Source: Sialis fuliginosa
Taxonomy: Eukaryota; Arthropoda; Insecta; Megaloptera; Sialidae
Length of the DNA stretch: 64,000 nt
Assembly (NCBI GenBank): GCA_961205875.1
Contig: OY540818.1
Span: 1,472,001 to 1,536,000 of the forward strand
Direction of reading: 5' to 3'
The translations under genes and the position numbers were made by a program. Positions 1 through 47,984 of the stretch are shown in pieces. The notes beneath the pieces were generated by a model. It was not told where the DNA came from, did no database searches, and was given only the letters and a program-made list of their open reading frames with translations. Numbering within the stretch: the first letter of the stretch is position 1; the number at the start of each line of letters is the position of its first letter.

Positions 1-855
1 TTGTTGCTTATTTTTTTCTTTATTTTTTTGGGTTCTTCGCTAAGTTCATATGAACTTAGCAGAGCACCCCCCCTTAAATTAGCTTCAGGCGAATCAGAAC
101 ACGGCTGAGAATTTGTTGCTAATTAGTTGCTTATTAGTTACGCTGATTTTGATTTTGTTGCTCAATTTCTCCTCTATTTTTTTGGGTTCTTCGCTAAGTT
201 CATATGAAATGGAATTGGTCAGAAATAAAACTCACCTTGGTATTATAAATATTAGTTTAATTGTATTATGAATATTAGTTCATATGAGCTTAGCGAAGAA
301 CCCAAAAAATAATGAAAAAATTGAGCAATAAAATCAAAATCAACGTAATTAATTAGCAACAAATTCTCAGCTCTGTTCTAATTCGTCTGAAGCTAATTTA
401 AAGGGGAGTTCTTCGCAAACTGCATATAAACTTAGCGAAAAACCCCAAAAAATACAGAAAAAATTGAGCAACAAAATCAAAATCAGTGTAACTAATTAGC
501 AACAAATTCTCAGCCGTGTTTTAATTCGTCTGAAGCTAATTTAAGGGGGAGTGCTTCGCAAACTGCATATAAACTTAGCGAAAAACCCAAAAAAAAAAAA
601 AATTGAGCAACAAAATCAAAATCAGCGTAACTAATTAGCAACAAATTTTCAGCCGTGTTCTGATTCGCCTGAAGCTTATTTAAGGGAGGTGCTCCGCTAA
701 GTTCATATGAACTTAGCGAAAAACCCCAAAAAATAAAGAAAAAATTGAGCAACAAAATCAAAATCAGCGTAACTAATTAGCAACTAATTAGCAACAAATA
801 ATCTACCTAATTTCGTTTTGATTAGCAATAGGTGCTTCGCTAAGTTCATGGTCAT
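1..855. mobile_element. Right-hand part of a foldback element with ~140-bp subterminal monomers
   Basis: Bases 1-210 and 285-855 hold the same monomer in opposite orientations around a short AT-rich spacer. Each monomer carries AACTTAGCGAA, a poly-A stretch, AATTGAGCAACAAAATC and GCGTAACTAATTAGC. Spacing of the AACTTAGCGAA motif (about 289, 431, 573, 711) gives a ~140-bp period. The right end is placed at 855 because the last 22 bases, read on the minus strand, match the terminus of the 12-kb foldback at 17476 with about 4 mismatches. The left end is outside the window. No coding capacity; open frames here are shadows. Confidence 0.75.
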
Positions 856-13734: not shown

Positions 13735-14554
13735 ACCAGAGACCGCTGACACTCCGAGAAGAACGCCGACCGCCGACGCCCGCCAAGAGACGTTCACTGT
13801 GATGCCAAACTCATAGACGCGCACCGGAAGCCGAGCGCCGTCGCACGACTAGACCCAGCTTCCACCGCGAAGCCCGCCATCATCTTCATGACGCCCAGCA
13901 CAGCTTCCACCGCGAAGCTCGCCGTCATCTTCATGATGCCCAGCACAGCTTCCACCGAGAAGTCCGCTGTCATCTTCATGACGCCCAGCACAGCTTCCAC
14001 CGCGAAGCCCGCCGTCATCTTCATGATGCCCAGCACAGCTTCCACCGAGAAGCCCGCCGTCATACTCATGACGCCCAACACAGCTTCCACCGCGAAGCCC
14101 GCCGTCATCTTCATGACGCCCAGCACAGCTTCCACCGAGAAGCCCGCCGTCATCTTCATGACGCCCAACACAGCTTCCATCGCGAAGCCCACCGTCATCT
14201 TCATGACGCCAACACAGCTTTAACCGAGAAGCCCGCCGTCATCTTCATGACGCCCAGCACAGCTTCCACCGAGAAGCCCACCATCACACGAATGACGTCT
14301 GCCCCATTGACATCTGAAGGATCGCACCGGCCCAGCTGATCCCAACATCAGCCCAGCCGATTCCAACGACACTGGAATCCCCGTCGATCCCCGTCAAGAC
14401 AAAAAAGACCCCCCCCCCCCTTCCATTGTAAATAATTGTATAATTTGTATATAAATATTAACGACGAAATAAATATTCCTTCCTAAGCCAACATTGTTTT
14501 TAATTTCTCCCGCTATAACACACAAACGCGGGGGTACAACAACATATACTAACT
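13735..14554. repeat. GC-rich island, tandem unit A (~820 bp)
   Basis: It starts ACCAGAGACCGCTGACACTC, contains about nine 45-bp minisatellite units (13850-14290), then a pyrimidine run, CCATTGTAAATAATTG, AATAAATATTCC (possible polyadenylation signal near 14470) and GCGGGGGTACAACAACA. The same order recurs in unit B. The AATAAA and ACAACA ending resemble an LTR or a 3' UTR, but no flanking retroelement genes are seen. Confidence 0.75.
13850..14290 (+). repeat. 45-bp minisatellite, block A
   Basis: The unit contains CAGCACAGCTTCCACCG, GAAGCCCGCCGTCATC and TTCATGACGCC, exactly 45 bp, so the frame is preserved. The plus strand reads 15-residue repeats (TPSTASTAKPAVIFM) and the minus strand also stays open (MKMTAGFAVEAVLGV). 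Alternation between CGCGAAG and CGAGAAG gives an A/E alternation. Openness on both strands is expected of an in-frame repeat and is not proof of a protein. Confidence 0.8.
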
Positions 14555-15317
14555 ACCAGAGACCGCTGACACTCCGAGAAGAACGCCGACCGCCGACGCC
14601 CGCCGAGAGACGTTCACTGTGATACCAAACTCACAGACGCGCACCGGAAGCCGAGCGCCGTCGCACGACTAGACCCAGCTTCCACCGCGAAGCCCGCCAT
14701 CATCTTCATGACGCCCAGCACAGCTTCCACCGCGAAGCCCGCCGTCATCTTCATGACGCCCAGCACAGCTTCCACCGCGAAGCCCGCCGTCATCTTCATG
14801 ACGCCCAGCACAGCTTCCACCGAGAAGCCCGCCGTCATACTCATGACGCCCAACACAGCTTCCACCGCGAAGCCCGCCGTCATCTTCATGACGCCCAGCA
14901 CAGCTTCCACCGAGAAACCCGCCGTCATCTTCATGACGCCCAACACAGCTTCCATCGCGAAGCCCACCGTCATCCTCATGACGCCAACACAGCTTTAACC
15001 GAGAAGCCTGCCGTCATCTTCATGACGCCCAGCACAGCTTCCACCGAGAAGCCCACCATCACACGAATGACGTCTGCCCCATTGACATCTGAAGGATCGC
15101 ACCGGCCCAGCTGATCCCAACATCAGCCCAGCCGATTCCAACGACACTGGAATCCCCGTCGATCCCCGTCAAGACAAAAAGACCCCCCCCCCCTTCCATT
15201 GTAAATAATTGTATAATTTGTATATAAATATTAACGACGAAATAAATATTCCTTCCTAAGCCAACATTGTTTTTAATTTCTCCCGCTATAACACACAAAC
15301 GCGGGGGTACAACAACA
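14555..15317. repeat. GC-rich island, tandem unit B (~763 bp)
   Basis: A near-identical direct repeat of unit A beginning at the same ACCAGAGACCGC and ending at the same ACAACAACATATACTAA. It carries about one fewer 45-bp unit (14667-15062), which explains most of the length difference. High identity implies recent tandem duplication or unequal exchange. Confidence 0.8.
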
Positions 15318-16534: not shown

Positions 16535-17466
16535 TTAGAAACTAACGGATAAGTTGTTCAAATTTCCACCATTGTTCTGGATGCATAGCTGAAGACGCTG
16601 ATGGAACGATTGGATTGTACTCAAAAGAACATTTTGTGAGATCGCTGCACATGCATTACGGATGCGTTCTTTCATATTTTCGCGCGTTGTTGTTTTTTTT
16701 TCGTAAACCGTATTTTTTAGATATCCCCATAAGAAAAAGTCCGGAGACGTTAAGTCGGGAGACCGAGGAGGCCACTGAACGGATCCACCCCTTCCAATCC
16801 AACGGTCATTGAACTGGTTATTCAAGTAATTTCTAACAATAACAGCGAAATGGGGTGGTGCGCCATCCAATTGAATCCACATATGTCGCCTGGTTAACAA
16901 ATCGATGTTTTGTAATAAACCAGGTAAATCATCACGGAGAAATTGTAGAAAATTATGTTTCTTCACATTTTGTTCGAAGAAATAAGGACCAATTAAATGT
17001 CCATTAATAATGCTGCACCATTAAGCTCCACCGATTTTGGTGATCAACGGATTCATACCTGTGAGGGTTAACGTCAGACCAATAATGACAATTATGTCTG
17101 TTTAAAGAGCCATAGTTTTTAAAAGTTGCTTCATCGGAAAAAAGGACGTATTTAAAGAAGTTTGCATCCTGTGCAATCTTCTGCAAAACCCATTGACAAA
17201 AATTAACGCGCAATCCGAAATCATTTAATTTCAATTGTTGCGTTAAAGTGATATGATATGGACGATATTTACTTTTTTCAAAATCCTTACCACCGTGCGC
17301 TGAGGCAAGCCAATTTGTCTTTCAATTTGTCGCGTGCTAGTATGCGGATCAAGATGAATCGTACCTAAAATTGCGAAAACTCGAATATCATTATCGTCAT
17401 ATTCGTGACTACGTCTTTTGCGAATAACAGATCCAGCAACAGTTCTTGCAACTAATCTTTGAATAG
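16535..17466 (-). pseudogene. Tc1/mariner-type transposase, main 3' part (frameshifted)
   Basis: Three minus-strand frames follow each other. 17466 to about 17243 encodes the helix-turn-helix region (RRTIQRLVARTVAGSVIRKRR, then RQIERQIGLPQRTVVRIL). 17234-17004 holds FSDEATF with the likely first catalytic Asp at about 17135-17133. 16966-16535 holds WIQLDGAPPHF (second Asp, about 16867-16865) and WPPRSPDLTSPDFFLWGYL (third acidic residue, about 16741-16739). I count 41 residues between the second and third Asp, a DD41D-like spacing instead of the DD34D of classic mariners. Frameshifts lie near 17240 and 17000; in the second gap the sequence reads INGHLIGPYFFEQN in another frame. The enzyme would have bound the element ends and cut and rejoined DNA in the nucleus. 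Inactive here. Confidence 0.85.
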
Positions 17467-17475
17467 TACGTCGGG
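17467..17475. repeat. 9-bp target-site duplication, left copy
   Basis: TACGTCGGG directly precedes the foldback terminus at 17476 and is repeated exactly at 29502-29510. Nine bases is the size reported for Drosophila FB elements and for Mutator-like elements. Confidence 0.85.
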
Positions 17476-17519
17476 ATGTCCATGAAGTTAGCAGAGCAAA
17501 GTCAGCAAAACAAAAGTTC

Positions 17520-18480
17520 ACTTGACTAATAATTAAGTGCTAATTAAATGCTAATTAAATGCGCAAAAAGAAAATTTAATGCTCTTTTAGAAAAAAAAAT
17601 ATTGCATGTTTTGCTAGCTTCAGATGAACTCAGCAGAACAAAGTGTCGAATAACAGTTAAAATCGTATGTAACTACACGAAATGCTTCAGAAAATTAAAT
17701 GCTAATTAAATGCGCAAAAAGAAAATTTAATGCTCTTTTAGAAAAAAAAATATTGCATGTTTTGCTGGTTTCAGATGAACTCAGCAGAACAAAGTATCGA
17801 AAAACAGTTAAAATCGTATGTAACTACACGAGATGCTTCAGAAAATTAAATGCTAATTAAATGCGCAAAAATAAAATTTAATGCTCTTTTAGAAAAAAAA
17901 AATATTGCATGTTTTGCTGGTTTCAGATGAACTCAGCAGAACAAAGTGTCGAATAACACTTAAAGTCATATGTAACTACACGAAATGCTTCAGAAAATTA
18001 AATGCTAATTAAATGCGCAAAAAGAAAATTTAATGCTCTTTTAGAAAAAAAAAAATATTGCATGTTTTGCTGGTTTCAGATGAACTCAGCAGAACAAAGT
18101 ATCGAAAAATAGTTAAAATCGTATGTAACTACACGAGATGCTTCAGAAAATTAAATGCTAATTAAATGCGCAAAAAGAAAATTTAATGCTCTTTTAGAAA
18201 AAAAAAATATTGCATGTTTTGCTGGTTTCAGATGAACTCAGCAGAACAAAGTATCGAAAAACAGTTAAAATCGTATGTAACTAAACGAGATGCTTCAGAA
18301 AATTAAATGCTAATTAAATGCGCAAAAATAAAATTTAATGCTCTTTTAGAAAAAAAAATATTGCATGTTTTGCTAGCTTCAGATGAACTAAGCAGAACAA
18401 AGTGTCGAATAACAGTTAAAGTCGTATGTAACTACATGAAATGCTTCAAAAAATTAAATGCTAATTAAATGCTCATAGTG
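17520..18480 (+). repeat. ~151-bp tandem array, left arm (about 6 copies)
   Basis: ATTAAATGCTAATTAAATGC recurs near 17694, 17845, 17998, 18150, 18302 and 18453, spacing 151-152 bp. Each monomer has GCATGTTTTGCT, CAGATGAACTCAGCAGAAC, AAAGT-TCGAA and a CGTATGTAACTACACG segment. Two monomer variants (GCTAGCTTC and GCTGGTTTC) are interspersed. Confidence 0.9.
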
Positions 18481-18905
18481 ATACAGTTGAAATATATTAA
18501 ATTTGATAACCGGTTTATTATTAATAAGTATTATCTATTTCCAGTATCAAACAATAATAATTTTTACCAGGAGTGTATGGAGCCAGTGGGCCCGTCGATT
18601 TTTTTCAAATATTTTTGTGTTCTTTAATTATTTCCCGAGTAGGGTTCTTATAGAAGATTATTTGTCAAAAAATACACAGAAACATACTTTCTTCATTTTG
18701 GTGTTTTGAAAAAAATTAAGTTCAGAGTTTTGATACGCCCTGTACAAAGAATACAATTTTGTTAATGTTTGATGTAATATCGCAATAATAGATCATATGC
18801 CAAAATTATTTTTAGCAAAAAACAAAATTTTTTTTGTTGTAATTACAAGATGTTGAAAATAACACAATTTTCTTACAAAAATGGTCATAATTTATAAACT
18901 ACTTA
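18481..18905. repeat. Internal segment shared with the 48.6-49.7 kb inverted repeat
   Basis: AGTATTATCTATTTCCAGTA, GTGTATGGAGCCAGTGGG and the following ~120 bp match 48606-48780 and, inverted, 49540-49680. The 68-residue frame at 18503-18709 is a shadow. It may be the original body of the foldback or an older insertion. Confidence 0.65.
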
Positions 18906-21900
18906 CAAGGGAACCTTTTCAAGTGATAAAATCGTATCAATTTCAAATTTTGTATATAGTTAGAGGATATCAAGGGTAGTAAGAAAAAAATTATTTTAGC
19001 TGCGGTAAAACGGTTTAAGGGGGCGAAATACCCCTATGAAAATGTGCAAAAAAATCGTATATTACAAATAACTCTGAAACTAATGAAGATTTCAAAAAAT
19101 CTATAATGCAAAATTTTCATGATTTTTTATACTCTTTCAAATGGCAACAGTCGAAGTTCGAAAATGTGAAACCGTTCAACCCCACCCTCCACCCACCCTA
19201 TTATTTGTTAAGATTTTTTTCTTCTATTTACTAAATTTAATTGTATTATACAATAGTAATTCATATATATATTACATATTTCATGAAAAAAATATTTAAC
19301 CCTTTCATCGCCACATTATCATATTTCGAAAAATATATACATCTTTTTTTAATTACGTAAGCGATAAGAAAAGTGTTTATAGTTGAAAAGTGGCAAATTT
19401 AGAAGGATATTTACATTTCAAGACCCGTAGAAACCAGTAGTGATTTTTTAGCGCAAGTTATTCTAGAAAATGGCCGGATAAAAATTGTCATTTTGTACGT
19501 TAGTTTCTGATGAAAAACTACTTTATGTTACTGTTAAAATATTTAATCCATCTTCGGAACCGTTTCAAGTGGTAAAATCGTATCGACTTTAAATTTTGTA
19601 TATAATATGAGAGGGTCAGGGGTAGTAAGAAAAAAGTTATTTTAGCTGCGGTAAAACGGTTTAAGGGAGTGAAATACCCCTATGAAAATATGTAAAATAA
19701 TCTTTTTTTTTCAAATATCTTCGAAACCAATAAAAATGTAAAGAAATGTACTGTACATCATTTCAAGGATTTTTTATACTCTTTCAAATGGCAAGAATGG
19801 TTATAATAATATAGTCAAAATTCGAACAAGGGAACCCATTTACCCCTACCCCATTAATTATTTAAGATTTTTATTTCTATTGAATAAATTTTAGTGTATT
19901 AGAGAAAATTAATTAAAAACCATGATAATTTCAAATTTTTATTTAAATTTTTTAACCCTTTCATTGCAAATTTTTTTAAGTTAATATTTTTCCTATTAAA
20001 TATGAGAAAATTATTTTTTTAAATATTTTTTTTTATATTGCAATGAAAGCGTTAAAATATTTAAATGAAAATTCGAAATTAGATAACTTATCTATAATAC
20101 ACTAAAATTTTTTCAATAGAAATTAAAATATTGAATAATTAATGGAGTGGGTTTTTCTTTTTCGAATTTTGACTATATTATTATAACCATTTGAAAGAGT
20201 ATAAAAAATCCATAAAATTTTTTATTGGTTTCGAAGATATTTGAAAAAAATTATTATTTTTCACATTTTGCACATTTTCATAGGGGTATTTCACTCCCTT
20301 AAACCATTTTACCGCAGCTAAAATAACATTTTTCTTACTACCCCTGACCCCCTCTTATCATATACAAAATTTAAACTCGATACGATTTTACCACTTGAAA
20401 CGGTTCCGAAGATGGATTAAATATTTTAACAGTAACATAAAGTAGTTTTTCATCAGAAACTAACGTACAAAATGACAATTTTTATCCGGCCATTTTCTAG
20501 AATAACTTGCGCTAAAAAATCACTACTGGTTTCTACGGGTGTTGAAATGTAAATATCCTTCTAAAGCCACTTTTCAACTATAAACACTTTTCTTATCGCT
20601 AACGTAATAAAAAAAAGATGTATATATTTTTCGAAATATGATAATGTGGCGATGAAAGGGTTAAATATTTTTTTCATGAAATATGTAATATATATATGAA
20701 TTACTATTGTATAATACAATTAAATTTAGTAAATAGAAGAAAAAAATCTTAAAAAATAATAGGGTGGGTGGAGGGTGGGGCTGAACGGTTTAACATTTTT
20801 GAATTTCGACTGTTGCCATTTGAAAGAGTATAAAAAATCATGAAAATTTTGTATTATAGATTTTTTGAAATCTTCATTAGTTTCAGAGTTTATTTGTAAT
20901 ATACGATTTTTTTGCACATTTTCATAGGGGTATTTCACTCCCTTAAACCGTTCTACCGCAGCTAAAATAACTTTTTTCTTACTACCCCTGACCCTCTCTT
21001 ATTATATACAAAATTTAAAATCGATACGATTTTACCACTTGAAACGGTTCCGAAGATGGATTAAATATTTTAACAGTAACATAAAGTATTTTTTCATCAG
21101 AAACTAACGTAGAAAATGACAATTTTTATGCGGCCATTTTCTAGAATAACTTGCGCTAAAAAATCGCTACTGGTTTCTACGGGTCTTGAAATGTAAATAT
21201 CCTTCTAAATTTGCCACTTTTCAACTATAAACACTTTTCTTATCGCTTACGTAATTAAAAAAAGATGTATATATTTTTCGAAATATGATAATGTGGCGAT
21301 GAAAGGGTTAAATATTTTTTTCGTGAAATATGTAATATATATATGAATTACTATTGTATAATACAATTAAATTTAGTAAATAGAAGAAAAAAATCTTAAA
21401 AAATAATAGAGTGGGTGGAGGGTGGGCTTGAACGGTTTCACATTTTCGAATTTCGACTGTTGCCATTTGAAAGAGTATAAAAAATCATGAAAATTTTGCA
21501 TTATAGATTTTTTGAAATCTTCATTAGTTTCAGAGTTATTTGTAATATTTGATTTTTTTGCAAATTTTCATAGGGGTATTTCACTCCCTTAAACCGTTTT
21601 ACCGCAGCTAAAATAACTTTTTTCTTACTACCCCTGACCCTCTCTTATTATATACAAAATTTAAAATCGATACGATTTTACCACTTGAAACGGTTCCGAA
21701 GATGGATTAAATATTTTAACAGTAACATAAAGTAGTTTTTCATCAGAAACTAACGTAGAAAATGACAATTTTTATGCGGCCATTTTCTAGAATAACTTGC
21801 GCTAAAAAATCGCTACTGTTTTCTACGGGTCTTGAAATGTAAATATCCTTCTAAATTTGCCACTTTTCAACTATAAACACTTTTCTTATCGCTTACGTAA

Positions 21901-22993
21901 TAAAAAAAAGATGTATATATTTTTCGAAATATGATAATGTGGCGATGAAAGGGTTAAATATTTTTTTCGTGAAATATGTAATATATATATGAATTACTAT
22001 TGTATAATACAATTAAATTTAGTAAATAGAAGAAAAAAATCTTAAAAAATAATAGAGTGGGTGGAGGGTGGGCTTGAACGGTTTCACATTTTCGAATTTC
22101 GACTGTTGCCATTTGAAAGAGTATAAAAAATCATGAAAATTTTGCATTATAGATTTTTTGAAATCTTCATTAGTTTCAGAGTTATTTGTAATATTTGATT
22201 TTTTTGCAAATTTTCATAGGGGTATTTCACTCCCTTAAACCGTTTTACCGCAGCTAAAATAACTTTTTTCTTACTACCCCTGACCCTCTCTTATTATATA
22301 CAAAATTTAAAATCGATACGATTTTACCACTTGAAACGGTTCCGAAGATGGATTAAATATTTTAACAGTAACATAAAGTAGTTTTTCATCAGAAACTAAC
22401 GTAGAAAATGACAATTTTTATGCGGCCATTTTCTAGAATAACTTGCGCTAAAAAATCGCTACTGGTTTCTACGGGTCTTGAAATGTAAATATCCTTCTAA
22501 ATTTGCCACTTTTCAACTATAAACACTTTTCTTATCGCTTACGTAATAAAAAAAAGATGTATATATTTTTCGAAATATGATAATGTGGCGATGAAAGGGT
22601 TAAATATTTTTTTCGTGAAATATGTAATATATATATGAATTACTATTGTATAATACAATTAAATTTAGTAAATAGAAGAAAAAAATCTTAAAAAATAATA
22701 GAGTGGGTGGAGGGTGGGCTTGAACGGTTTCACATTTTCGAATTTCGACTGTTGCCATTTGAAAGAGTATAAAAAATCATGAAAATTTTGCATTATAGAT
22801 TTTTTGAAATCTTCATTAGTTTCAGAGTTATTTGTAATATTTGATTTTTTTGCAAATTTTCATAGGGGTATTTCACCCCCTTAAACCGTTTTACCGCAGC
22901 TAAAATAATTTTTTTCTTACTACCCTTGACCCCCTCTAACTATATACAAAATTTGAAATCGATACGATTTTATCACTTGAAAAGGTTCCCTTG
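18906..22993. mobile_element. Nested foldback built from 645-bp units, TTA target duplication
   Basis: Ends CAAGGGAACCTTTTCAAGTG (left) and CACTTGAAAAGGTTCCCTTG (right) are perfect inverted repeats flanked on both sides by TTA (18903-18905, 22994-22996), a 3-bp duplication typical of PIF/Harbinger-type insertion. The left arm (18906-19970) has about one and a half units. The right arm (20040-22993) has four to five units, the middle ones almost identical. Each unit includes GGGGTATTTCACTCCC, ACCGCAGCTAAAATAAC and GTGGCGATGAAAGGGTTAA. The 70-residue frame at 20726-20938 is a shadow. Confidence 0.85.
20280..22900 (-). repeat. 645-bp tandem array, right arm
   Basis: The landmark GGGGTATTTCAC recurs near 20283, 20928, 21573, 22218 and 22864, an almost constant 645-bp spacing. 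Units at about 20930-22860 differ by only a few bases, indicating very recent amplification. Confidence 0.85.
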
Positions 22994-22996
22994 TTA

Positions 22997-23339
22997 GTAT
23001 AATCCCACACATGCTATATCAAAGTATCCTAAAAATAAATACCTTTAGATTATAAATTAAAAAAATATACTTTGTATTTAAAAAAATATTACTTTGATCT
23101 GTAACACACTCATTGGACACCCTATATAAATGTAACTATTTAAAAAATGTGCTGCTTGTCTATCCTGACAACTTTTGTATTTAAAGTTTTCTTCCACTTA
23201 TTATAATAAATGAAATATTGTACTTTGACAACATAAGGCAAATAGCGTCCTATTAAAACATATACATATATAAAGACCTTGATAAACAACCATAGATGCA
23301 TGTTAACTGTCAAATCTGAGTTCAACAATTACAGTTTTT
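22997..23339. other. Foldback interior, no gene seen
   Basis: AT-rich sequence between the nested element and the right array. It contains ACACCCTATATAAATG. The 62-residue minus-strand frame is not credible. Confidence 0.45.
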
Positions 23340-26300
23340 TAGAAGAGTATTAAATTTTCTTTCTGCGCATTTAATTAGTTTTTAATTTTCTGTAGCATTT
23401 CGTGTAGTTACATACGACTTTAACTGTTTTTCGACACTTTGTTCTGCTTAGTTCATCTGAAGCTAGCAAAACATGCAATATTTTATTTTTCTAAAAGAGG
23501 ATTAAATTTTCTTTTTGTGCATTTAATTAGCATTTAATTTTCTGAAGCATCTCGTGTAGTTACATACGATTTTAACTGTTTTTCGATACTTTGTTCTGCT
23601 GAGTTCATCTGAAACCAGCAAAACATGCAATATTTTTTTTTCTAAAAGAGCATTAAATTTTCTTTTTGTGCATTTAATTAGCATTTAATTTTCTGAAGCA
23701 TCTCGTGTAGTTACATACGATTTTAACTGTTTTTCGATACTTTGTTCTGCTGAGTTCATCTGAAACCAGCAAAACATGCAATATTTTTTTTTCTAAAAGA
23801 GCATTAAATTTTCTTTTTGCGCATTTAATTAGCATTTAATTTTCTGAAGCATCTCGTGTAGTTACATATGACTTTAACTGTTATTCGACACTTTGTTCTG
23901 CTGAGTTCATCTGAAACCAGCAAAACATGCAATATTTTTTTTTCTAAAAGAGCATTAAATTTTCTTTTTGCGCATTTAGTTAGCATTTAATTTTCTGAAG
24001 CATTTTGTGTAGTTACATATGACTTTAACTGTTATTCGACACTTTGTTCTGCTGAGTTCATCTGAAGCTAGCAAAACATGTAATATTTTTTTTTCTAAAA
24101 GAGCATTAAATTTTATTTTTGTGCATTTAATTAGCATTTAATTTTCTGAAGCATCTTGTGTAGTTACATACGATTTTAACTGTTTTTCGATACTTTGTTC
24201 TGCTTAGTTCATCTGAAACCAGCAAAACATACAATATTTTTTTTTTCTAAAAGAGCATTAAATTTTATTTTTGCGCATTTAATTAGCATTTAATTTTCTG
24301 AAGCATTTCGTGTAGTTACATATGACTTTAACTGTTATTTGACACTTTGTTCTGCAGAGTTCATCTGAAGCTAGCAAAACATGCAATATTTTTTTTTCTA
24401 AAAGAGCATTAAATTTTCTTTTTGCGCATTTAATTAGCATTTAATTTTCTGTAGCATTTCGTGTAGTTACATACGATTTTAACTGTTTTTCGACACTTTG
24501 TTCTGCTTAGTTCATCTGAAGCTAGCAAAACATGTAATATTTTATTTTTCTAAAAGAGGATTAAATTTTCTTTTTGTGCATTTAATATGCATTTAATTTT
24601 CTGAAGCATCTCGTGTAGTTACATACGATTTTAACTGTTTGCGATACTTTGTTCTGCTGAGTTCATCTGAAACCAGCAAAACATGCAATATTTTTTTTTC
24701 TAAAAGAGCAATAAATTTTCTTTTTGCGCATTTAATTAGCATTTAATTTTCTGAAGCATCTCGTGTAGTTACATATGACTTTAACTGTTATTCGACACTT
24801 TGTTCTGCTGAGTTCATCTGAAACCAGCAAAACATGCAATATTTTTTTTTCTAAAAGAGCATTAAATTTTCTTTTTGCGCATTTAGTTAACATTTAATTT
24901 TCTGAAGCATTTTGTGTAGTTACATATGACTTTAACTGTTATTCGACACTTTGTTCTGCTGAGTTCATCTGAAGCTAGCAAAACATGTAATATTTTTTTT
25001 TCTAAAAGAGCATTAAATTTTATTTTTGCGCATTTAATTAGCATTTAATTTTCTGAAGCATCTCGTGTAGTTACATACGATTTTAACTATTTTTCGATAC
25101 TTTGTTCTGCTGAGTTCATCTGAAACCAGCAAAACATGCAATATTTTTTTTTCTAAAAGAGCATTAAATTTTCTTTTTGCGCATTTAATTAGCATTTAAT
25201 TTTCTGAAGCATCTCGTGTAGTTACATACGATTTTAACTGTTTTTCGATACTTTGTTCTGCTTAGTTCATCTGAAACCAGCAAAACATGCAATATTTTTT
25301 TTTTCTAAAAGAGCATTAAATTTTATTTTTGCGCATTTAATTAGCATTTAATTTTCTGAAGCATCTCGTGTAGTTACATACGATTTTAACTATTTTTCGA
25401 TACTTTGTTCTGCTGAGTTCATCTGAAACCAGCAAAACATGCAATATTTTTTTTTCTAAAAGAGCATTAAATTTTCTTTTTGCGCATTTAATTAGCATTT
25501 AATTTTCTGAAGCATCTCGTGTAGTTACATACGATTTTAACTGTTTTTCGATACTTTGTTCTGCTGAGTTCATCTGAAACCAGCAAAACATGCAATATTT
25601 TTTTTTCTAAAAGAGCATTAAATTTTCTTTTTGCGCATTTAATTAGCATTTAATTTTCTGAAGCATTTCGTGTAGTTACATACGATTTTAACTGTTATTC
25701 GACACTTTGTTCTGCTGAGTTCATCTGAAACCAGCAAAACATGCAATATTTTTTTTTCTAAAAGAGCATTAAATTTTATTTTTGCGCATTTAATTAGCAT
25801 TTAATTTTCTGAAGCATTTTGTGTAGTTACATATGACTTTAACTGTTATTCGACACTTTGTTCTGCTGAGTTCATCTGAAGCTAGCAAAACATGTAATAT
25901 TTTTTTTTCTAAAAGAGCATTAAATTTTATTTTTGCGCATTTAATTAGCATTTAATTTTCTGAAGCATCTTGTGTAGTTACATACGATTTTAACTGTTTT
26001 TCGATACTTTGTTCTGCTTAGTTCATCTGAAACCAGCAAAACATGCAATATTTTTTTTTTCTAAAAGAGCATTAAATTTTATTTTTGCGCATTTAATTAG
26101 CATTTAATTTTCTGAAGCATCTCGTGTAGTTACATACGATTTTAACTATTTTTCGATACTTTGTTCTGCTGAGTTCATCTGAAACCAGCAAAACATGCAA
26201 TATTTTTTTTTCTAAAAGAGCATTAAATTTTCTTTTTGCGCATTTAATTAGCATTTAATTTTCTGAAGCATCTCGTGTAGTTACATACGATTTTAAATAT

Positions 26301-29300
26301 TTTTCGATACTTTGTTCTGCTGAGTTCATCTGAAACCAGCAAAACATGCAATATTTTTTTTTCTAAAAGAGCATTAAATTTTCTTTTTGCGCATTTAATT
26401 TGCATTTAATTTTCTGAAGCATTTCGTGTAGTTACATACGATTTTAACTGTTATTCGACACTTTGTTCTGCTAAGTTCATCTGTAGCTAGCAAAACATGC
26501 AATATTTTTTTTTCTAAAAGAGCATTAAATTTTATTTTTGCGCATTTAATTAGCATTTAATTTTCTGAAGCATTTTGTGTAGTTACATATGACTTTAACT
26601 GTTATTCGACACTTTGTTCTGCTGAGTTCATCTGTAGCTAGCAAAACATGCAAAAAAATTTTTTCTAAAAGAGCATTAAATTTTCTTTTTGCGCATTTAA
26701 TAAGCATTTAATTTTCTGAAGCATCTCGTGTAGTTACATACGATTTTAACTATTTTTCGATACTTTGTTCTGCTGAGTTCATCTGAAACCAGCAAAACAT
26801 GCAATATTTTTTTTTCTAAAAGAGCATTAAATTTTCTTTTTGCGCATTTAATTAGCATTTAATTTTCTGAAGCATCTCGTGTAGTTACATACGATTTTAA
26901 ATATTTTTCGATACTTTGTTCTGCTGAGTTCATCTGAAACCAGCAAAACATGCAATATTTTTTTTTCTAAAAGAGCATTAAATTTTCTTTTTGCGCATTT
27001 AATTAGCATTTAATTTTCTGAAGCATTTCGTGTAGTTACATACGATTTTAACTGTTATTCGACACTTTGTTCTGCTGAGTTCATCTGTAGCTAGCAAAAC
27101 ATGCAATATTTTTTTTTCTAAAAGAGCATTAAATTTTATTTTTGCGCATTTAATTAGCATTTAATTTTCTGAAGCATTTTGTGTAGTTACATATGACTTT
27201 AACTGTTATTCGACACTTTGTTCTGCTGAGTTCATCTGTAGCTAGCAAAACATGCAAAAATTTTTTTTCTAAAAGAGCATTAAATTTTCTTTTTGCGCAT
27301 TTAATTAGCATTTAATTTTCTGTAGAATTTCGTGTAGTTACATACGACTTTAACTGTTTTTCGACACTTTGTTCTGCTTAGTTCATCTGAAGCTAGCAAA
27401 ACATGCAATATTTTATTTTTCTAAAAGAGGATTAAATTTTCTTTTTGTGCATTTAATTAGCATTTAATTTTCTGAAGCATCTCGTGTAGTTACATACGAT
27501 TTTAACTGTTTTTCGATACTTTGTTCTGCTGAGTTCATCTGAAACCAGCAAAACATGCAATATTTTTTTTTCTAAAAGAGCATTAAATTTTCTTTTTGCG
27601 CATTTAATTAGCATTTAATTTTCTGAAGCATCTCGTGTAGTTACATATGACTTTAACTGTTATTCGACACTTTGTTCTGCTGAGTTCATCTGAAACCAGC
27701 AAAACATGCAATATTTTTTTTTCTAAAAGAGCATTAAATTTTCTTTTTGTGCATTTAGTTAGCATTTAATTTTCTGAAGCATTTTGTGTAGTTACATATG
27801 ACTTTAACTGTTATTCGACACTTTGTTCTGCTGAGTTCATCTGAAGCTAGCAAAACATGTAATATTTTTTTTTCTAAAAGAGCATTAAATTTTATTTTTG
27901 CGCATTTAATTAGCATTTAATTTTCTGAAGCATCTTGTGTAGTTACATACGATTTTAACTGTTTTTCGATACTTTGTTCTGCTTAGTTCATCTGAAACCA
28001 GCAAAACATGCAATATTTTTTTTTTCTAAAAGAGCATTAAATTTTATTTTTGCGCATTTAATTAGCATTTAATTTTCTGAAGCATCTCGTGTAGTTACAT
28101 ACGATTTTAACTATTTTTCGATACTTTGTTCTGCTGAGTTCATCTGAAACCAGCAAAACATGCAATATTTTTTTTTCTAAAAGAGCATTAAATTTTCTTT
28201 TTGCGCATTTAATTAGCATTTAATTTTCTGAAGCATCTCGTGTAGTTACATACGATTTTAACTGTTTTTCGATACTTTGTTCTGCTTAGTTCATCTGAAA
28301 CCAGCAAAACATTCAATATTTTTTTTTTCTAAAAGAGCATTAAATTTTATTTTTGCGCATTTAATTAGCATTTAATTTTCTGAAGCATTTTGTGTAGTTA
28401 CATATGACTTTAACTGTTATTCGACACTTTGTTCTGCTGAGTTCATCTGTAGCTAGCAAAACATGCAAAAAATTTTTTTCTAAAAGAGCATTAAATTTTC
28501 TTTTTGCGCATTTAATTAGCATTTAATTTTCTGTAGCATTTCGTGTAGTTACATACGACTTTAACTGTTTTTCGACACTTTGTTCTGCTTAGTTCATCTG
28601 AAGCTAGCAAAACATGCAATATTTTTTTTTCTAAAAGAGCATTAAATTTTATTTTTGCGCATTTAATTAGCATTTAATTTTCTGAAGCATCTTGTGTAGT
28701 TACATACGATTTTAACTGTTTTTCGATACTTTGTTCTGCTTAGTTCATCTGAAACCAGCAAAACATGCAATATTTTTTTTTTCTAAAAGAGCATTAAATT
28801 TTATTTTTGCGCATTTAATTAGCATTTAATTTTCTGAAGCATCTCGTGTAGTTACATACGATTTTAACTATTTTTCGATACTTTGTTCTGCTGAGTTCAT
28901 CTGAAACCAGCAAAACATGCAATATTTTTTTTTCTAAAAGAGCATTAAATTTTCTTTTTGCGCATTTAATTAGCATTTAATTTTCTGAAGCATCTCGTGT
29001 AGTTACATACGATTTTAACTGTTTTTCGATACTTTGTTCTGCTTAGTTCATCTGAAACCAGCAAAACATTCAATATTTTTTTATTCTAAAAGAGCATTAA
29101 ATTTTATTTTTGCGCATTTAATTAGCATTTAATTTTCTGAAGCATCTCGTGTAGTTACATACGATTTTAACTATTTTTCGATACTTTGTTCTGCTGAGTT
29201 CATCTGAAACCAGCAAAACATGCAATATTTTTTTTCTAAAAGAGCATTAAATTTTCTTTTTGCGCATTTAATTAGCATTTAATTTTCTGAAGCATTTCGT

Positions 29301-29460
29301 GTAGTTACATACGATTTTAACTGTTATTCGACACTTTGTTCTGCTGAGTTCATCTGTAGCTAGCAAAACATGCAATATTTTTTTTTCTAAAAGAGCATTA
29401 AATTTTCTTTTTGCGCATTTAATTAGCATTTAATTAGCACTTAATTATTAGTCAAGTGAA
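23340..29460 (-). repeat. ~151-bp tandem array, right arm (about 40 copies)
   Basis: Inverted relative to the left arm. Each monomer reads CTGAAGCATCTCGTGTAG, TTTGTTCTGCTGAGTTCATC, AACATGCAATATTTTTTTT and CTAAAAGAGCATTAAATTTT. Variants (TCTCGTG/TTTCGTG, ACGATTTT/ATGACTTT, GAAACC/GAAGCT/GTAGCT) recur in blocks of several monomers, for example 23400-24370 resembles 24440-25000 and 27310-27900. This suggests multi-monomer duplications by unequal exchange. It is a contiguous array with no unique spacers and therefore not a CRISPR. Confidence 0.9.
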
Positions 29461-29501
29461 CTTTTGTTTTGCTGACTTTGCTCTGCTAACTTCATGGACA
29501 T

Positions 29502-29510
29502 TACGTCGGG
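29502..29510. repeat. 9-bp target-site duplication, right copy
   Basis: TACGTCGGG, identical to 17467-17475 and lying directly outside the right foldback terminus. Confidence 0.85.
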
Positions 29511-29631
29511 ATGGATGTCTTCGGCCGTCATAGCGTTCAGCGTACAGATTCGCTGCTAGCGAATAATTATCGTGGCATTCTCCGACAATCTTAATCATAT
29601 CCACAATCTCGTTTAGTGGATAATCAGCCAT
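29502..29631 (-). pseudogene. Tc1/mariner-type transposase, N-terminal part separated by the foldback
   Basis: From ATG at 29631-29629 the minus strand reads 43 codons starting MADYPLNEIVDMIKIVGECH and ending DGRRHPSRR. It resumes in frame at 17466 with TIQRLVARTV once one copy of the 9-bp duplication is removed. The MADY-LNEIVDMI start is typical of the helix-turn-helix leader of one large insect transposase family. It is too short to stand out as an open frame and is recognisable only through the split. Confidence 0.85.
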
Positions 29632-33979: not shown

Positions 33980-35065
33980 TCAAATTACTTTTTTATAGTT
34001 GTCGCATTTAAAAGGTCGTTTATTAGAATGTTTCAATTTATGTTTATTCAAATCACTTTTATATCCACAGATATAATTACACTTGTCACATTTAAAAGGT
34101 CGTTCATTAGAATGTTTCAATTTATGTCTATTCAAATTACTTTTTTGTCTACAACTATAAGTACACTTGTCGCATTTAAAAGGTCGTTTATTAGAATGTT
34201 TCAATTTATGTCTATTCAAATGACTTTTAATTTTGCTACTATAATCACACTTGTTGCATTTAAAAGGTCGTACATCAGAATGTGTTAATTTATGTGTATT
34301 CAAATCACAATTTCGTCTACAACTATAATCACACTTGTCGCATTTAAAAGGTCGTACATCAGAATGTGTTAATTTATGTGCATTGAAATCACAATTTCGT
34401 CTACAACTATAATCACATTGGTCGCATTTAAAAGGTGGCTCCTTAGAATGTGTCAATTTATGTGAATTCAAATCACTTTTATGTCCACAACTATAATCAC
34501 ACTTGTCGCATTTAAAAAATCGTTCATTAGAATGTATTAATTTATGTTTATTCAAATTACTTTTATGCCTACAACTATAATCACAATTGTCGCATTTAAA
34601 AGGTCGTTCATTAGAATGTTTTAATTTATGTGAATTCAAATGACTTTTATGTTTACAACTATAATCACACTTGTCGCATTTAAAAGGTCGTTCATTAGAA
34701 TGTTTCAATTTATGTTTATTCAAATCACTTTTATATCCACAACTATAATTACACTTGTCGCATTTAAAAGGCCATTCATTAGAATGTTTCAATTTATGTG
34801 TATTCAAATTACTTTTTTGTCTACAACTATAATTACACTTGTCGCATTTAAAAGGTCGTTTATTAGAATGTTTCAATTTATGTCTATTCAAATGACATTT
34901 ATGTTTACAACTATAATCACATTGGTCGCATTTAAAAGGTGGCTCATTAGAAGCTATTAAATATTTATCACTGTATTTTGTATCTTCACTGAGATCTTCA
35001 TTTTGTTGTTCCTTTTTATTAATGTCAGCATCTGGCGGATTTTCTTCTTTAACATCCAAGTCTTC
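33980..35065 (-). CDS. C2H2 zinc-finger protein, finger-array exon (11 complete fingers)
   Basis: The frame has 11 complete C-x2-C-x12-H-x3-H fingers joined by 7-residue linkers of the form SNERPFK, then a truncated twelfth (CDNYKKVI-stop). Fingers follow KCDKCDYSCRHKSNLNKHKL and differ mainly at the helix positions that read DNA, so this would be a sequence-specific nuclear DNA-binding protein. Residues 1-40 are acidic (DLDVKEENPP, EQQNEDLSEDTKY). There is no ATG at the 5' edge; the exon is bounded by an acceptor TTGTCGTTCTACAG, exon from 35065 in phase 0. The first coding exon may lie at 61025. Fingers 2-3 and 10-11 are near duplicates, a sign of unequal exchange within the array. Plus-strand frames at 33974-34288 and 34640-34960 are shadows. 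A family match (zinc finger) is certain; the gene's identity is unknown. Confidence 0.85.
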   Translation of the reverse strand, partial: EDLDVKEENPPDADINKKEQQNEDLSEDTKYSDKYLIASNEPPFKCDQCDYSCKHKCHLNRHKLKHSNKRPFKCDKCNYSCRQKSNLNTHKLKHSNEWPFKCDKCNYSCGYKSDLNKHKLKHSNERPFKCDKCDYSCKHKSHLNSHKLKHSNERPFKCDNCDYSCRHKSNLNKHKLIHSNERFFKCDKCDYSCGHKSDLNSHKLTHSKEPPFKCDQCDYSCRRNCDFNAHKLTHSDVRPFKCDKCDYSCRRNCDLNTHKLTHSDVRPFKCNKCDYSSKIKSHLNRHKLKHSNKRPFKCDKCTYSCRQKSNLNRHKLKHSNERPFKCDKCNYICGYKSDLNKHKLKHSNKRPFKCDNYKKVI

Positions 35066-35170
35066 CTGTAGAACGACAATTATCTCGTTAAAAAATAAAT
35101 AAAACGAACCAGCTGTAGTTAGAATAGGAGGTACCTACTTGTCTATTATATCTACAACATTTGTGTATGT

Positions 35171-42010: not shown

Positions 42011-42558
42011 ATATGTATTTATGTACAAAAAGATATACAGGGTGGTGTACTATCTGTATGTACTATGTACATATAAATAAACAGGCTTGTTTCTAAAAAT
42101 TATAAAAATATAAAACTACCACAAAATCTACATTATTATAAGCACAAATAATTATTAATTAAGTTACCATGTTTTTGAAAAATTATTATTAAAGCATCCC
42201 TAGATGGTCGCAGTTTCAATATATTCATAACATTATATATTACTCCTTAAATAATACACAAAACAAATTTGACATTTATGCGTGAGTTGTAGGTTGTAGG
42301 TAACCATATTTCCACAAATAACAGCTGTCACCTATGACTATGGCTGCCACAATTTATTCTAATTAACACGTGACCAAGTAAATATTTATTCCTTGCAAAA
42401 AGATCGGAATAAATTTAATGGTATGATATAGTAAATTTGTTATTTTTATTCCGTTTTTAGTAATTTTTCGTTCCAAATGTTGAACTAGTCGACATCAGAA
42501 AGAGAAGAACTTATCTGTAGCAAATGAAACAACAATACTATTTTTGCTACCTAGTACT
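42011..42558. other. AT-rich spacer, no gene seen
   Basis: Contains ATACAGGGTGGTGTACTATC (42034-42053), a solo terminal motif. Nothing else is recognised. Confidence 0.4.
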
Positions 42559-42979
42559 GTCGCTATTTATTCATGTCCTGGAAGTTGCACCAGCCAAATC
42601 AGCCCAATCAAATAAAAGTACTTGGGGTTTTTCTTACTTTTTTTTTACTAATTTATTACCACTAAAGATATTTTATTACCATTTCCGGTATCGAGTTACA
42701 GCCGTGTGATCTAGATTCGTCCGTAAGCTACACCAGCCATAGTGTTTCATGTGTTCATTTTATGCGTTCAGAATGAAACCTATGTCATTTTTTATTACTT
42801 ATTTTTTACTCTTGAACGATACCAAGAAAAATAAAAAATAAAATTTTTTCAACCCTTAAACCAAAATATTAACTTTTAAGACAAAAATCATTAGAAAGCG
42901 TTAAATAAAAACTATATAATAAATTTAATATATCAACTATCTAGAACAGTGGTTCCCAAACTTCTTTTGTCGCTGAACT

Positions 42980-45360
42980 CCTACAGGTTTTTTCATAATT
43001 TGAAAAACCCTTATCCTAAAAAAAATTTTTTTTACCGATTTAAATTATTTCAACTAAAAAAAAAATTAAAACGTCTAAAACAAATTATTACCCCAGCCCA
43101 ATCAACTAAAATGTATCCATACATGTTGTTTTATACCTAGATAATAATATTATAATAGAAATAACCGTTTAGCGATGGCCAATAATTTATTCTACCGATT
43201 TTAATCATTTCAAATAAAAATAAAAATCTTTAAATCTTCTAATACAATTTATTACCCCAGCCCAATCAACTAAAATGTATCCATACATATTGTTTTATAC
43301 CTAGTTAATAAAATTATATTAGAAATAATAGTTTAGTGATGGCCAATAATTTTTTTTTTAAGATTTCAATTATTTGAAATAAAAACAATCCTTTAAACGT
43401 CTAAAACAATTTATTACCCCCAGCCCAATCAACAAAATTGTATCCATACATGTTGATGTATATCTAAAAAATATTATTATAACAGAAATAACCGTTTAGC
43501 GATGGTCCATAATTTTTTTTACCGATTTTAATCATTTCAAATAAAAATAAAAATCTTTCAAATTCCAAAACAATTTATTACCTCAGCCCAATCAACTTAA
43601 ATGTATCCATACATGTTGTTTTATATCTAAATACTAATATTATAATACAAATAACAGATTGATGGCCAGTAATTTTTTTTACCGATTTCAATTATTTCAA
43701 ATAAAAAAAATACTTAAACGTCCAAACCAATTTTTACCCCCAGCCCAATCAACTAAAATGTATCTAGATAATGATATTATAATGGAAATAAGTTTGGTGG
43801 TGGCCAGTAATTTTTTTTACCAATTTCAATTATTTCAAATAAAATAAATCCTTAAAACGCCCAACAAAATTTATTACCCCCAGCCCAATCAACTAAAATG
43901 TATCCATACATGTTGTTTTATATCTAGATAATAATATTATAATAGAAATAACAGTTTGGCGATGACCAGAAATTATTTTAACCGATTTTAATTATTTCAA
44001 ATAAAAAAAATACTTAAAACGTCCAAATCAATTTATTACCCTCAGCCCAATCAACTAAAATATATCCATGCATGTTGTTTTATACCTAGATAACAATATA
44101 ATAATAGAAATAACAGTTTAGCGATGGCCAATAATTTTTTTCCTATTTAAATTATTTCAACTAAAAAAAAACCTTAAAACGCTTAACAAAATTTATAACC
44201 CCCAGCCCAATTAATTAAAATGTATCCATAAATGTTGTTATATATCTAGATAATGATATAATGGAAATAACAGTTTGGCAATGGCCAGTAATTTTTTTTA
44301 CCAATTTCAGTTATTTTAAGTAGAAAAAAATCCTTACAACGTCCAAAACCTAATCATCTAAAATGTATTCATTAATGTTGTTTTATATCTAGATAATAAT
44401 ATTATAATAGAAATAACAGTTTGGCGTTGGCCAGTATTTTTTTTACCGATTTCAATTATTTCAAATAAAAAAAATACTTAAAACGTCCAAATCAATTTAT
44501 TACCCCCAGCCCAATCAACTAAAATGTATCCATGCATGTTGTTTTTTTCCAAAATAGCAATATAATAATAGAAATAACAGTTTAGCGATAGACAATAATT
44601 TTTTTCCGATTTAAATTATTTCAACTAAAAAAAATCCTTAAAACGCACAACAAATTTTATTACCCCCCGCCCAATCAACTAATATGTATCCATAAATGTT
44701 GTTTTATATCTAGATAATAATATTATAATGGAAATAACAGTTTGGTGGTGGCCCGTAATTTTTTTTACCAATTTCAATTATTTCAACTAAAAAAAAATAA
44801 TTATTTCAACTAAAAAAAAATTCTTAAAACGTCTAAAACAATTTATTACCTCCAGCCCAATCAGCTAAAATGTATTCATGAATGTTGTTTTATACTTAGA
44901 TAATAATATTATAACAGAAATAACAGTTTAGCGATGGCCAATCATTTTTTATACCGATTTAAATTATTTCAACTAAAAAAAATTTTTTAAAACGTCCAAA
45001 ACAATTTATTACCCCCAGCCCAATCTACTGAAATATGTTCAGAAATAATTTACTATGTCCTCCTAATATGATTATAAAAGAACTTACAGTATAGCGATGG
45101 CCAGTAATTTTTTTTACCGATGTTACACATTTCAAATAAAAAAATCCTTAAAACGTTCATCACAATTTATTACCCCCAGACCAATGAACTTAATGGTATC
45201 CATACATGGCCAGTAATTTTTTTCCGATTTCAATCAACTAAAATGTGTACATACATGTTGTTTTATACCTAGATAATAATATAATAACAGAAAGAAATGT
45301 TTAGCGATGGCCAATATTTTTTTTACCGATTTATATTATTTCAACTAAAATAAAATTCTT
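42980..45360 (+). repeat. ~160-bp tandem array, left arm
   Basis: AGCCCAATC recurs at about 43095, 43259, 43422, 43585, 43742, 43882, 44044 and 44204 and onward (140-164 bp). Copies are diverged by indels in A- and T-runs. Confidence 0.8.
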
Positions 45361-47560
45361 TGTTGTTGAAATAATTGAAATCGGTAAAAAAAAAATATTT
45401 GCCATCGCTAAACTGTTATTATATTATTATCTAGTTATAACACAAAATGTATTGATTAATTTTAGTTGATTGGGCTGGGGGTAATAAATTGTTTTTTGAC
45501 GTTTTAAGGATTTTATTATTTGAAATAATTCAAATCGGTAAACAAAATTATTGTCCACCGCTGTACTGTAAGTTCTTTTATAATCATATTAGGAGGACAT
45601 AGTGAATCAATTATGAGGACATTTCAGTTGATTGGGCTAGGGGTAATAAATTGTTTTGGACGTTTTAAGGATTTTTTTTATTTGAAATAATTGAAAATGG
45701 TTAAAAAATAATTATTGGCCATCACCTTACTGATTTTTCTATTATAATATTATTATCTAGATATAAAACAACATGTATGGATACATTTTAGTTGATTGGG
45801 CTGGGGGTAATAAATTGTTTTGGACGTTTTAAGGATTTTTTCTTGTTGAAATAATTGAAATTGGTAAAAAAAATTACTGGCCACCACCAAACTGTTATTT
45901 CCATTATAATATCATTATCTAGATATAAAACAACATTTATGGATACATTTTAGTTGATTGGGCTGGGGGTAATAAATTTTGTTGGGTGTTTTAAGGATTT
46001 ATTTTATTTGAAATAATTGAAATCGGTAAAAAAAATTATTGGCCACCGCTATACATAAGTTCTTTTATAATCATATTACGAGGACATAGTGAATAATTTC
46101 TGAGGACATTTCAGTTGATTGGGCTAGGGGTAATAATTTGTTTTGGACGTTTTAAGGATTTTTTTATTTGAAATAATTGAAAATGGTTAAAAAAATACTT
46201 ACTGGCCATCAAGATACTGATTTTTCTATTATAATATTATTATCTAGGTACAAAAAAACATGCATGGATACATTTTAGTTGATTGGGCTAGGGGTAATAC
46301 ATTGTTTTGGACGTTTTAAGTATTTTTTTTATTTGAAATAATTGAAATCGGAAAAAAAATTACTGCCCATTACCAAACTGTTATTACTATTATAATATTA
46401 TAATCTAGATATAAAACAACATGTATGGATACAATTGAGTTGATTGGGCTGGGGGTAATAAATTGTGTTGGACGTTTTAAGGATTTTTTTTTAGTTGAAA
46501 TAATTAAAATCGGTAAAAAAAATTATTGGCCATCGCTTAACTGTTATTTCTGTTATTATATTATTATCTAGGTATGAAACAACATGCATGGATACAGTTT
46601 AGTTGACTGGGCTGGGGGTAACAAATAATGTGGACGTTTTAATTACTTTTTTTTAGATTACATAATTTAAATCGGTAAAAAAAAATTATTGGCCAATGCT
46701 ATACTGTACGTTCTTTTACACACATATAAGGAAGACATAGTAAATCATTTCTAAACACATTTCAGTTGATTGGACTGGGGATTATAAATTGTTTTGGACG
46801 TTTTAAGATTTTTTTAGTTGAAATAACTAAAATCGGTAAAAAAAAATTATTGGCCATCGCTAAACTGTTATTTCTATTATAATAATATTTTTTAGATATA
46901 CATCAACATGTATGGATACAATTTTGTTGATTGGGCTGGGGGTAATAAATTGTTTTAGACGTTTAAAGGATTTTTTTTATTTCAAATAATTGCAATCTTA
47001 AAAAAAATTATTGGCCATCACTAAAATATTATTTCTAATATAATTTTATTATAATATAAAATAAATTGTATTAGAAGTTTTAAAGATTTTTATTTTTATT
47101 TGAAATGATTAAAATCGGTAGAATAAATTATTCTATTATAATAATAATATTATAATAGAAATAACCGTTTAGCGATGGCCAATAATTTATTCTACCGATT
47201 TTAAGGTATTTATATATTATATATATTATAAGGTATTATATTTTAGGTATAAAACAACATGTATGGATACATTTTAGTTGATTGGGCTGGGGTAATAATT
47301 TGTTTTAGACGTATTAAAGATTTTTTATATTTCAAATAATTTAAATCTGTAAAAAAAATTATTGGCAATGGCTAATCTGTTATTTCTATTATAATATTAT
47401 TATCTAGGTTTAAAACAACATGTATGGATACATTTTAGTTGATTGGGCTGGGGTAATAAATTGTTTTAGACGTTTTAATTTTTTTTTTAGTTGAAATAAT
47501 TTATATCGGTAAAAAAAATTTTTTTTAGGATAACGGTTTTTCAAATTATGAAAAAACCTG
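45361..47560 (-). repeat. ~160-bp tandem array, right arm (inverted)
   Basis: GATTGGGCTGGGGGTAATAA recurs about every 160 bp. Some monomers (about 45560, 46060, 46710) carry a distinct variant, TTCTTTTATAATCATATTA plus GAGGACATAGT, which also occurs once in the left arm near 45050. Confidence 0.8.
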
Positions 47561-47984
47561 TAGGAATTCAGCGACAAAAGAAGTTTGGGAACCACTGTTC
47601 TAGATAGTTGATATATTAAATTTATTATATAGTTATTATTTAACGCTTTCTAATGATTTTTGTCTTAAAAGTAAATATTTTGGTTTAAGGGTTGAAAAAT
47701 TTTTTTTTTTTAATTTTTCTTGGTTTCGTTCAAGAGTAAAAAAAAAGTAATAAGAAATGACATAGGTTTCATTCTGAACGCATAAAATTAACACACGAAA
47801 CACTATGGCTGGTGTAGCTTACGGACGAATCTAGATCACACGGCTGTAACTCGATACCGGAAATGGTAATAAAATATATTTATTGGTAATAAATCAGTAA
47901 AAAAAAAGTAAGAAAAACCCCAAGTACTTTTTTGATTGGGCTGATTTGGCTGGTGCAACTTCCAGGACATGAATAAATTATTTA

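Follow-up and report, generated by a model that had tools for sequence, protein, structure and literature searches.

The 64-kb window analysed here (C10:1472001-1536000 of a chromosome-scale, 392-Mb assembly in 20 contigs) carries a foldback element of 12,026 bp, which belongs to a young foldback family with dozens of copies and nearly identical ends, hereafter family 1. We consider it likely that the element is a foldback DNA transposon which is non-autonomous and is mobilised in trans, the enzyme being probably a transposase of the Mutator/Rehavkus type. The finding at this locus is real, sharp and well supported, and the kind of element is already known; the main interest lies in the 9-bp footprint, which is uniform across 36 copies, in the several families that have one design, and in a 39-kb copy that holds a satellite-like array between intact ends. 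The features of the window are as follows.

1..855, no strand: family 3, a third and related foldback, of which the right part is present, with 143-bp monomers and the end ATGACCATGAACTTAGC; its 9-bp duplication TGTTTTAAC is at 856-864
16538..17466, minus: putative interrupted mariner-like transposase, remainder, with the end of DUF4817 and a weak partial DDE_3; decayed
17467..17475 and 29502..29510, no strand: target-site duplication TACGTCGGG, left and right flanks of the foldback
17476..29501, no strand: whole foldback element of family 1, 12,026 bp
17476..17541, plus: left terminal segment, starting ATGTCCATGAAGTTAGCAGAGC and including a 37-bp stretch like the arm monomer
17542..18475, plus: left arm, 6 full 151-bp monomers and partial ones
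18476..18905, plus: family middle domain, part one; the domain is noncoding and measures some 760 bp in many copies
18906..22993, no strand: nested insertion of 4,088 bp, bounded by long inverted ends (CAAGGGAACC...), with TTA on either side
22994..23334, plus: family middle domain, part two
23335..29435, minus: right arm, 40 full 151-bp monomers, inverse of the left arm
29436..29501, minus: right terminal segment, finishing ...CTTCATGGACAT; with its neighbours the inverse of the left end over 125 bp
29511..29631, minus: N-terminal part of the putative interrupted mariner-like transposase, where DUF4817 begins
42573..47970, no strand: second, related foldback (family 2), with arms of 160-bp monomers and ends ATGTCCTGGAAGTTGC

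The preliminary description of this DNA had claimed a 12-kb foldback with an exact 9-bp target duplication and boundaries fixed to the base, and each of these points was borne out. When both strands are counted, TACGTCGGG occurs in the window at the two flanks only, and the inverted ends of the element are identical over at least 125 bp (outermost 125 bp, inverse comparison), which together place the element at 17476-29501. A 10-bp duplication was rejected because it would leave the two ends unequal, and no duplication longer than 9 bp was found among the 36 copies that carry one. The interrupted gene, which looks like a decayed mariner-like transposase judging from its domain matches, also agrees with the earlier claim: once one duplication copy is removed and the other retained, the minus-strand frame crosses the rejoined junction at residue 40-41, and the Pfam match to DUF4817 spans the rejoined site (residues 6-52, E 1.3e-10). 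Downstream there is a partial match to DDE_3, which at E 8.1e-4 falls under Pfam's cut-off. Since stop codons are present elsewhere in the frame, the host gene was either dead when hit or died afterwards. Searches of the window gave no Rfam match at the gathering threshold and no tRNA.

Family 1 ends were located across the genome by matching their first 28 bases, allowing 3 mismatches at most and using the reversed sequence as a control. The terminus occurs at 84 places, 75 of them exact, and the control at none. Seventy-four of these ends face each other in 37 pairs, the remaining 10 being unpaired, and the paired copies range from 1,216 to 39,021 bp (median 3,665 bp). The duplication length at other copies had been set beforehand as a refuting test, which the claim withstood; the length is exactly 9 bp in 36 of the 37 paired copies, and the one exception, C10:11902884-11910510, has no duplication (6 of 9 bases differ). 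Swapping left and right flanks between copies gave no agreement in 1,332 pairings, also when one mismatch was allowed. The 36 duplicated sequences have no strict consensus and an A/T-rich middle. Over 2,758 bp no base separates C3:19389149 from C4:16004221, two copies on separate contigs whose duplications are not the same, which indicates recent movement. As for C10:11902884, an origin by ectopic recombination was considered, and no reciprocal partner was found among the 12 flanks of unpaired or extra ends.

The complete sequence was examined for 22 copies (the window copy, L061-L066, L068-L081, and L082 with L083); L067, in which both ends point in one direction, was excluded from this set. 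Arms of 151-bp monomers are present in every one of the 22. They contain 259 full monomers, with 2-40 per arm and usually unequal numbers in the left and right arms; the monomer matches are 145-153 bp long, most commonly 151. The middle is shorter than its usual length or interrupted in some copies. The size of the window copy, regarded as distinctive in the preliminary description, is untypical of family 1 and no family trait: it is accounted for by the right arm, with its 40 full monomers, and by the nested insertion, and copy L065 is uninterrupted at the matching position.

P/Galileo elements make duplications of 7-8 bp, with the length in Galileo differing from 9 bp, and Merlin elements 8-9 bp, while Tc1/mariner elements duplicate TA; FB4 has short inner repeats of 10, 20 and 31 bp. 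The 9 bp of family 1 (36/37) thus disagree with P/Galileo, and the TA duplication is not what family 1 shows. Structurally, family 1 is a foldback element, having long inverted repeats of tandem subrepeats in variable number in 22/22 copies, and it is mobile in that 36/37 pairs lie at different sites with target duplications. Exactly 9 bp in 36/37 falls within the 8-11 bp described for Mutator-like elements (MULEs), and the combination with a minisatellite near the termini is that described for Rehavkus, with its 9-bp duplications (PMC6446971). The transposase of the Rehavkus group is described as including a PHD finger (PMC6446971), and any membership of family 1 in Mutator/Rehavkus would hinge on the transposase. 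In an arthropod MULE survey, complete elements are given as 1.4-10.0 kb with TIRs up to 1,193 bp (PMC13359780); the 12-, 13- and 39-kb copies of family 1 exceed this range, but these are non-autonomous copies enlarged by their arrays.

The duplication length and the arm design would place family 1 alongside Tetris, Rehavkus-1_TC, FB4 and Tm1, where the likeness to Tetris, Rehavkus-1_TC and FB4/NOF is one of published descriptions rather than of aligned sequences. Tetris/DAIBAM of the Drosophila virilis group, as described in PMC4079207, is likewise a non-autonomous foldback, its arms consist of AT-rich tandem repeats of about 220 bp in varying number (151-bp repeats in family 1), its duplications are 8-10 bp long, its monomer has a 37-bp stretch in common with the outer terminal domain as in family 1, and it is presented as a source of satellite-like arrays, with an autonomous partner likewise missing from that account. 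It differs in its three structurally complete copies (37 paired copies in family 1) (PMC4079207) and in that the duplication of family 1 is 9 bp in 36/37. Tetris is also cited in PMC12910113 and PMC12628747. Rehavkus-1_TC of Tribolium castaneum, described as 9.5 kb long, has a 164-bp satellite unit in its inverted termini, mostly as five and eight monomers (PMC10218199). Hence the 151-bp monomer, called distinctive in the preliminary description, is so as a sequence and not as a length, given the units reported for Tetris (PMC4079207) and Rehavkus-1_TC (PMC10218199). Drosophila FB4 resembles family 1 in its long inverted repeats, 9-10 bp duplications and non-autonomy, with the transposase given as unknown in that account, and its inverted repeats are about 700 bp (PMC8277862). 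Tm1 of root-knot nematodes shares the foldback-like composite inverted repeats of variable tandem units, with duplications of 8-10 bp, mostly 9 bp, and differs in its units of about 14 bp and in having an identified Phantom-type MULE transposase (PMC3169594). Galileo of Drosophila also has long, internally repetitive inverted repeats, whose additional transposase binding sites serve as a model for the family 1 arms, but it uses a P-superfamily transposase with a THAP domain (PMC3688188). Among the titles and abstract openings listed by literature searches, mainly outside subscription journals, none dealt with family 1.

A search for full-length copies encoding a transposase, proposed in the preliminary description, found none: across the 22 copies read whole, the longest stop-to-stop frame is 103 aa, whereas the Rehavkus group is described as coding for a transposase (PMC6446971). 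The long copies C10:11902884 and C6:19128648 and the read part of C11:707747 were considered as coding candidates and rejected, consisting of arrays and middle sequence only. The genome has 10 matches to the MULE domain PF10551 and 87 to PF20700, some being fragments of one gene, and these were compared with 220 end positions (ends of families 1, 2 and 3 and those of a looser pattern, from which one row repeating a family 1 end was dropped). Neither domain was found inside a paired family 1 copy, where a match would have surfaced because these copies are all 39.1 kb or shorter. At a distance of up to 20 kb from an end there are two PF20700 matches, C4:35660019 (13-15 kb away) and C14:8159633 (5.5 kb away). 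The latter, degraded and beside a relic end to which nothing ties it, is the sole one of the PF20700 matches to come closer than 10 kb to any end in the comparison; its locus (L099) was rejected as an autonomous copy, since it contains 115 bp of diverged end beside unrelated decayed sequence, with no arms. Also rejected as a partner was a Phantom-like MULE at C7:18231595 (FLYWCH and MULE domains, with a 134-bp minisatellite behind the gene), which contains no family DNA; its single weak match, 36 bp, is to a portion of L067 outside the family sequence. Accordingly, no autonomous partner was found near the 220 end positions or in the 22 copies. An autonomous copy with diverged ends would escape the end patterns used, and ends with other changes may have escaped because 100 of the 213 places of a 17-base end search were among the matches listed.

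The recurrence of the same ends across the genome, with a separate 9-bp duplication at each site, makes it likely that a staggered 9-bp cut is followed by insertion of the whole unit, i.e. the arms and the noncoding middle. The transposase would be supplied in trans by a Mutator/Rehavkus-type element. By analogy with Galileo, it may recognise the ATGTCC end together with a terminus-like motif repeated in the monomers, a putative binding site, so that the arms would constitute arrays of secondary binding sites. The number of monomers would then drift through unequal exchange or slippage, and the middle could pick up other DNA, presumably as seen in the nested insertion of the window copy and in a 184-bp satellite-like array of other copies.

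Alternatively, the mobilising transposase might lie outside Mutator/Rehavkus, in P/Galileo, Merlin or an undescribed group, and happen to cut with a 9-bp stagger. Such an origin would be compatible with the finding that no Mutator-type domain is tied to family 1 ends and with the rise of foldbacks in unrelated superfamilies, as in the P-superfamily foldback Galileo (PMC3573991, PMC3688188), but we regard it as unlikely, since 9 bp in 36/37 agrees with the lengths reported in PMC6446971, 8-11 bp in MULEs and 9 bp in Rehavkus. That the locus is instead host satellite DNA, placed in the mariner gene by segmental or assembly duplication with no transposon involved, might be suggested by the tandem arrays of the arms and by the decayed repeat DNA of the flanking gene, but it is already refuted by the 37 paired copies with common ends, 36 of them with their own 9-bp duplication. 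The distribution of the monomer also speaks against it: a monomer 24-mer has 429 matches genome-wide, and the 100 among the matches listed are all near family 1, either in paired copies or at most 3 kb inside an unpaired end. Finally, the window junctions could be assembly artefacts. The preliminary description had proposed a check for empty sites, and the rejoined 300 bp match only their own two halves in the whole assembly, with no independent empty-site allele found, so that the support for an empty site comes from the frame and the domain; an artefact is nevertheless extremely improbable in view of 36 sites whose flanks differ and which agree in their ends and in duplication length.

In family 1, a 37-bp stretch is common to the outer terminal sequence and the monomer. 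The score of this likeness was matched by 0 of 2,000 shuffles in one test and by 2 of 2,000 in another; the likeness speaks for the reading we prefer, but for family 1 the result is not extreme. For families 2 and 3 the corresponding scores were matched by 0 of 2,000 shuffles each, and the shared motif of family 2 begins about 28 bp inward, away from the extreme end.

To describe how the arrays are related, the nearest relative was counted for 249 monomers, the 10 monomers of L066 being dropped as a duplicate of L065. The nearest relative lies in the same arm for 57 monomers (10.9 expected), in the opposite arm for 15 (6.3 expected), and in another copy for 177 (232 expected). Mean identity is almost equal within an arm (95.1%) and between copies (94.6%), and between copies the outermost monomers are more alike than the innermost (96.7% and 94.5%). 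These figures are consistent with a young family in which unequal exchange or slippage has duplicated some monomers locally. In the 40-monomer arm there is no clear higher-order period, the identity being flat by lag at 94.1-95.5%. The excess of nearest relatives in the same arm speaks for the reading we prefer. That the majority of monomers (177/249) are closest to a monomer of another copy counts against it, as does the paired copy without a duplication (C10:11902884).

In seven of the 22 copies the middle contains tandem arrays of a 184-bp repeat, 7 to 56 units in length, and this repeat has no clear similarity to the terminus or to the 151-bp monomer. The largest pair, C3:29023389-29062409, spans 39,021 bp with the exact duplication AATTATTTA; six of six 450-bp samples from 29026000-29055449 consist of the 184-bp repeat, and the outer 1.5 kb at either end is family sequence. 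Thus, unlike Tetris as described, the largest array of family 1 is a dissimilar repeat in the middle, between intact ends. A 28-mer of the repeat has 360 exact matches in the genome, and the 100 among the matches listed fall in four copies of the family, including C1:3623488, where one end only was recognised. Both the 151-bp and the 184-bp repeats appear confined to the family, among the matches listed. We tentatively raise the possibility, although we are inclined to doubt it, that the arms act as a transposase-loading array enabling the pairing and movement of very long cargo, and that the family is a vehicle in which a whole satellite array travels as one insertion; the copy of 39,021 bp would then have landed with most of its 184-bp array inside. 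If this were true, foldbacks would be a route for satellite birth and dispersal.

Family 1 offers a good system for asking which transposase moves foldbacks without a known autonomous partner, a partner that is likewise given as unknown in the accounts of Tetris (PMC4079207) and FB4 (PMC8277862), and also for how tandem arrays grow within transposons. Because both tandem repeats, among the matches listed, occur in family copies only and the window holds three related families with a shared design, copy number, age and array length are directly comparable. The 17-base end, with up to 2 mismatches, occurs at 213 places genome-wide compared with 30 for the control. Family 3 ends are found at 27 places (control 0) and form 11 pairs; an exact 9-bp duplication is present in 9 of the 10 pairs tested (all but C14:456295-458079), the tenth differing at 2 bases. 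Family 2 ends number 41 at up to 2 mismatches (control 0), and the duplication was seen in the window copy, the sole family 2 copy examined. The looser end pattern occurs at 69 places compared with 11 for the control, pointing to probable further families beyond these three. The ends of families 1 and 2 can be aligned over 30 bp, with a score equalled by 2 of 5,000 random 30-mers from the window.

Three loci elsewhere in the genome belong to the first foldback family, whose arms are built of 151-bp monomers. The copy at G000:C3:29023389-29062409 extends over 39 kb, and all six stretches sampled from it (L119-L124) consist of the 184-bp tandem repeat that occurs in the middle of some copies. 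Only one paired copy, at G000:C10:11902884-11910510 (L081), has no target duplication, and two full 151-bp monomers are embedded in its 184-bp array. In another stretch, G000:C4:21958614-21963300 (L067), both family ends lie in the same orientation, and the second follows immediately after inverted arm monomers belonging to the first copy; the locus therefore looks like one copy inserted into the arm of another.

Further features of the window, and one locus on contig C7, are as follows.

1-855: right part of a copy of the third foldback family, 143-bp monomers
13856-14286: GC-rich 45-bp tandem array, open frame
14676-15061: GC-rich 45-bp tandem array, open frame
18906-22993: nested 4,088-bp element, long near-perfect inverted ends, TTA at either side
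33983-35134, minus strand: tandem C2H2 zinc fingers in an open frame, encoded by an 84-bp repeat
37270-38737: long palindromic stretch
41177-42014: long palindromic stretch
51686-52422: long palindromic stretch
63066-64000: long palindromic stretch, extending to the window edge
G000:C7:18230200-18233500 (L084): FLYWCH and MULE-domain frame, open, 468 aa

The nested element, which interrupts the window copy of the first family, contains inverted and direct repeats and has no frame of at least 80 aa when ATG, GTG and TTG starts are considered.

The third-family copy, whose left end lies beyond the window at C10:1469950, is flanked by an exact 9-bp duplication. At the second foldback (160-bp monomers), the 9-bp TATTTATTC stands immediately left of the element (42564-42572), and on the right (47971-47987) 8 additional bases, GAATAAAT, separate the element end from a second TATTTATTC. 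GAATAAAT repeats 8 bases of the 9-bp TATTTATTC in inverted orientation. The extra bases could be a hairpin scar or an inverted-repair scar.

The four palindromic stretches have arms of 263-516 bp. No convincing duplications were found at the first three, which were checked, except for a candidate 9-bp duplication, TATGTACAA, at offset ends of the second.

One frame checked from the 45-bp arrays gave no Pfam match. Behind the L084 frame lies a 134-bp minisatellite, an arrangement that is Phantom-like; the DNA of this locus is unrelated to the first foldback family.
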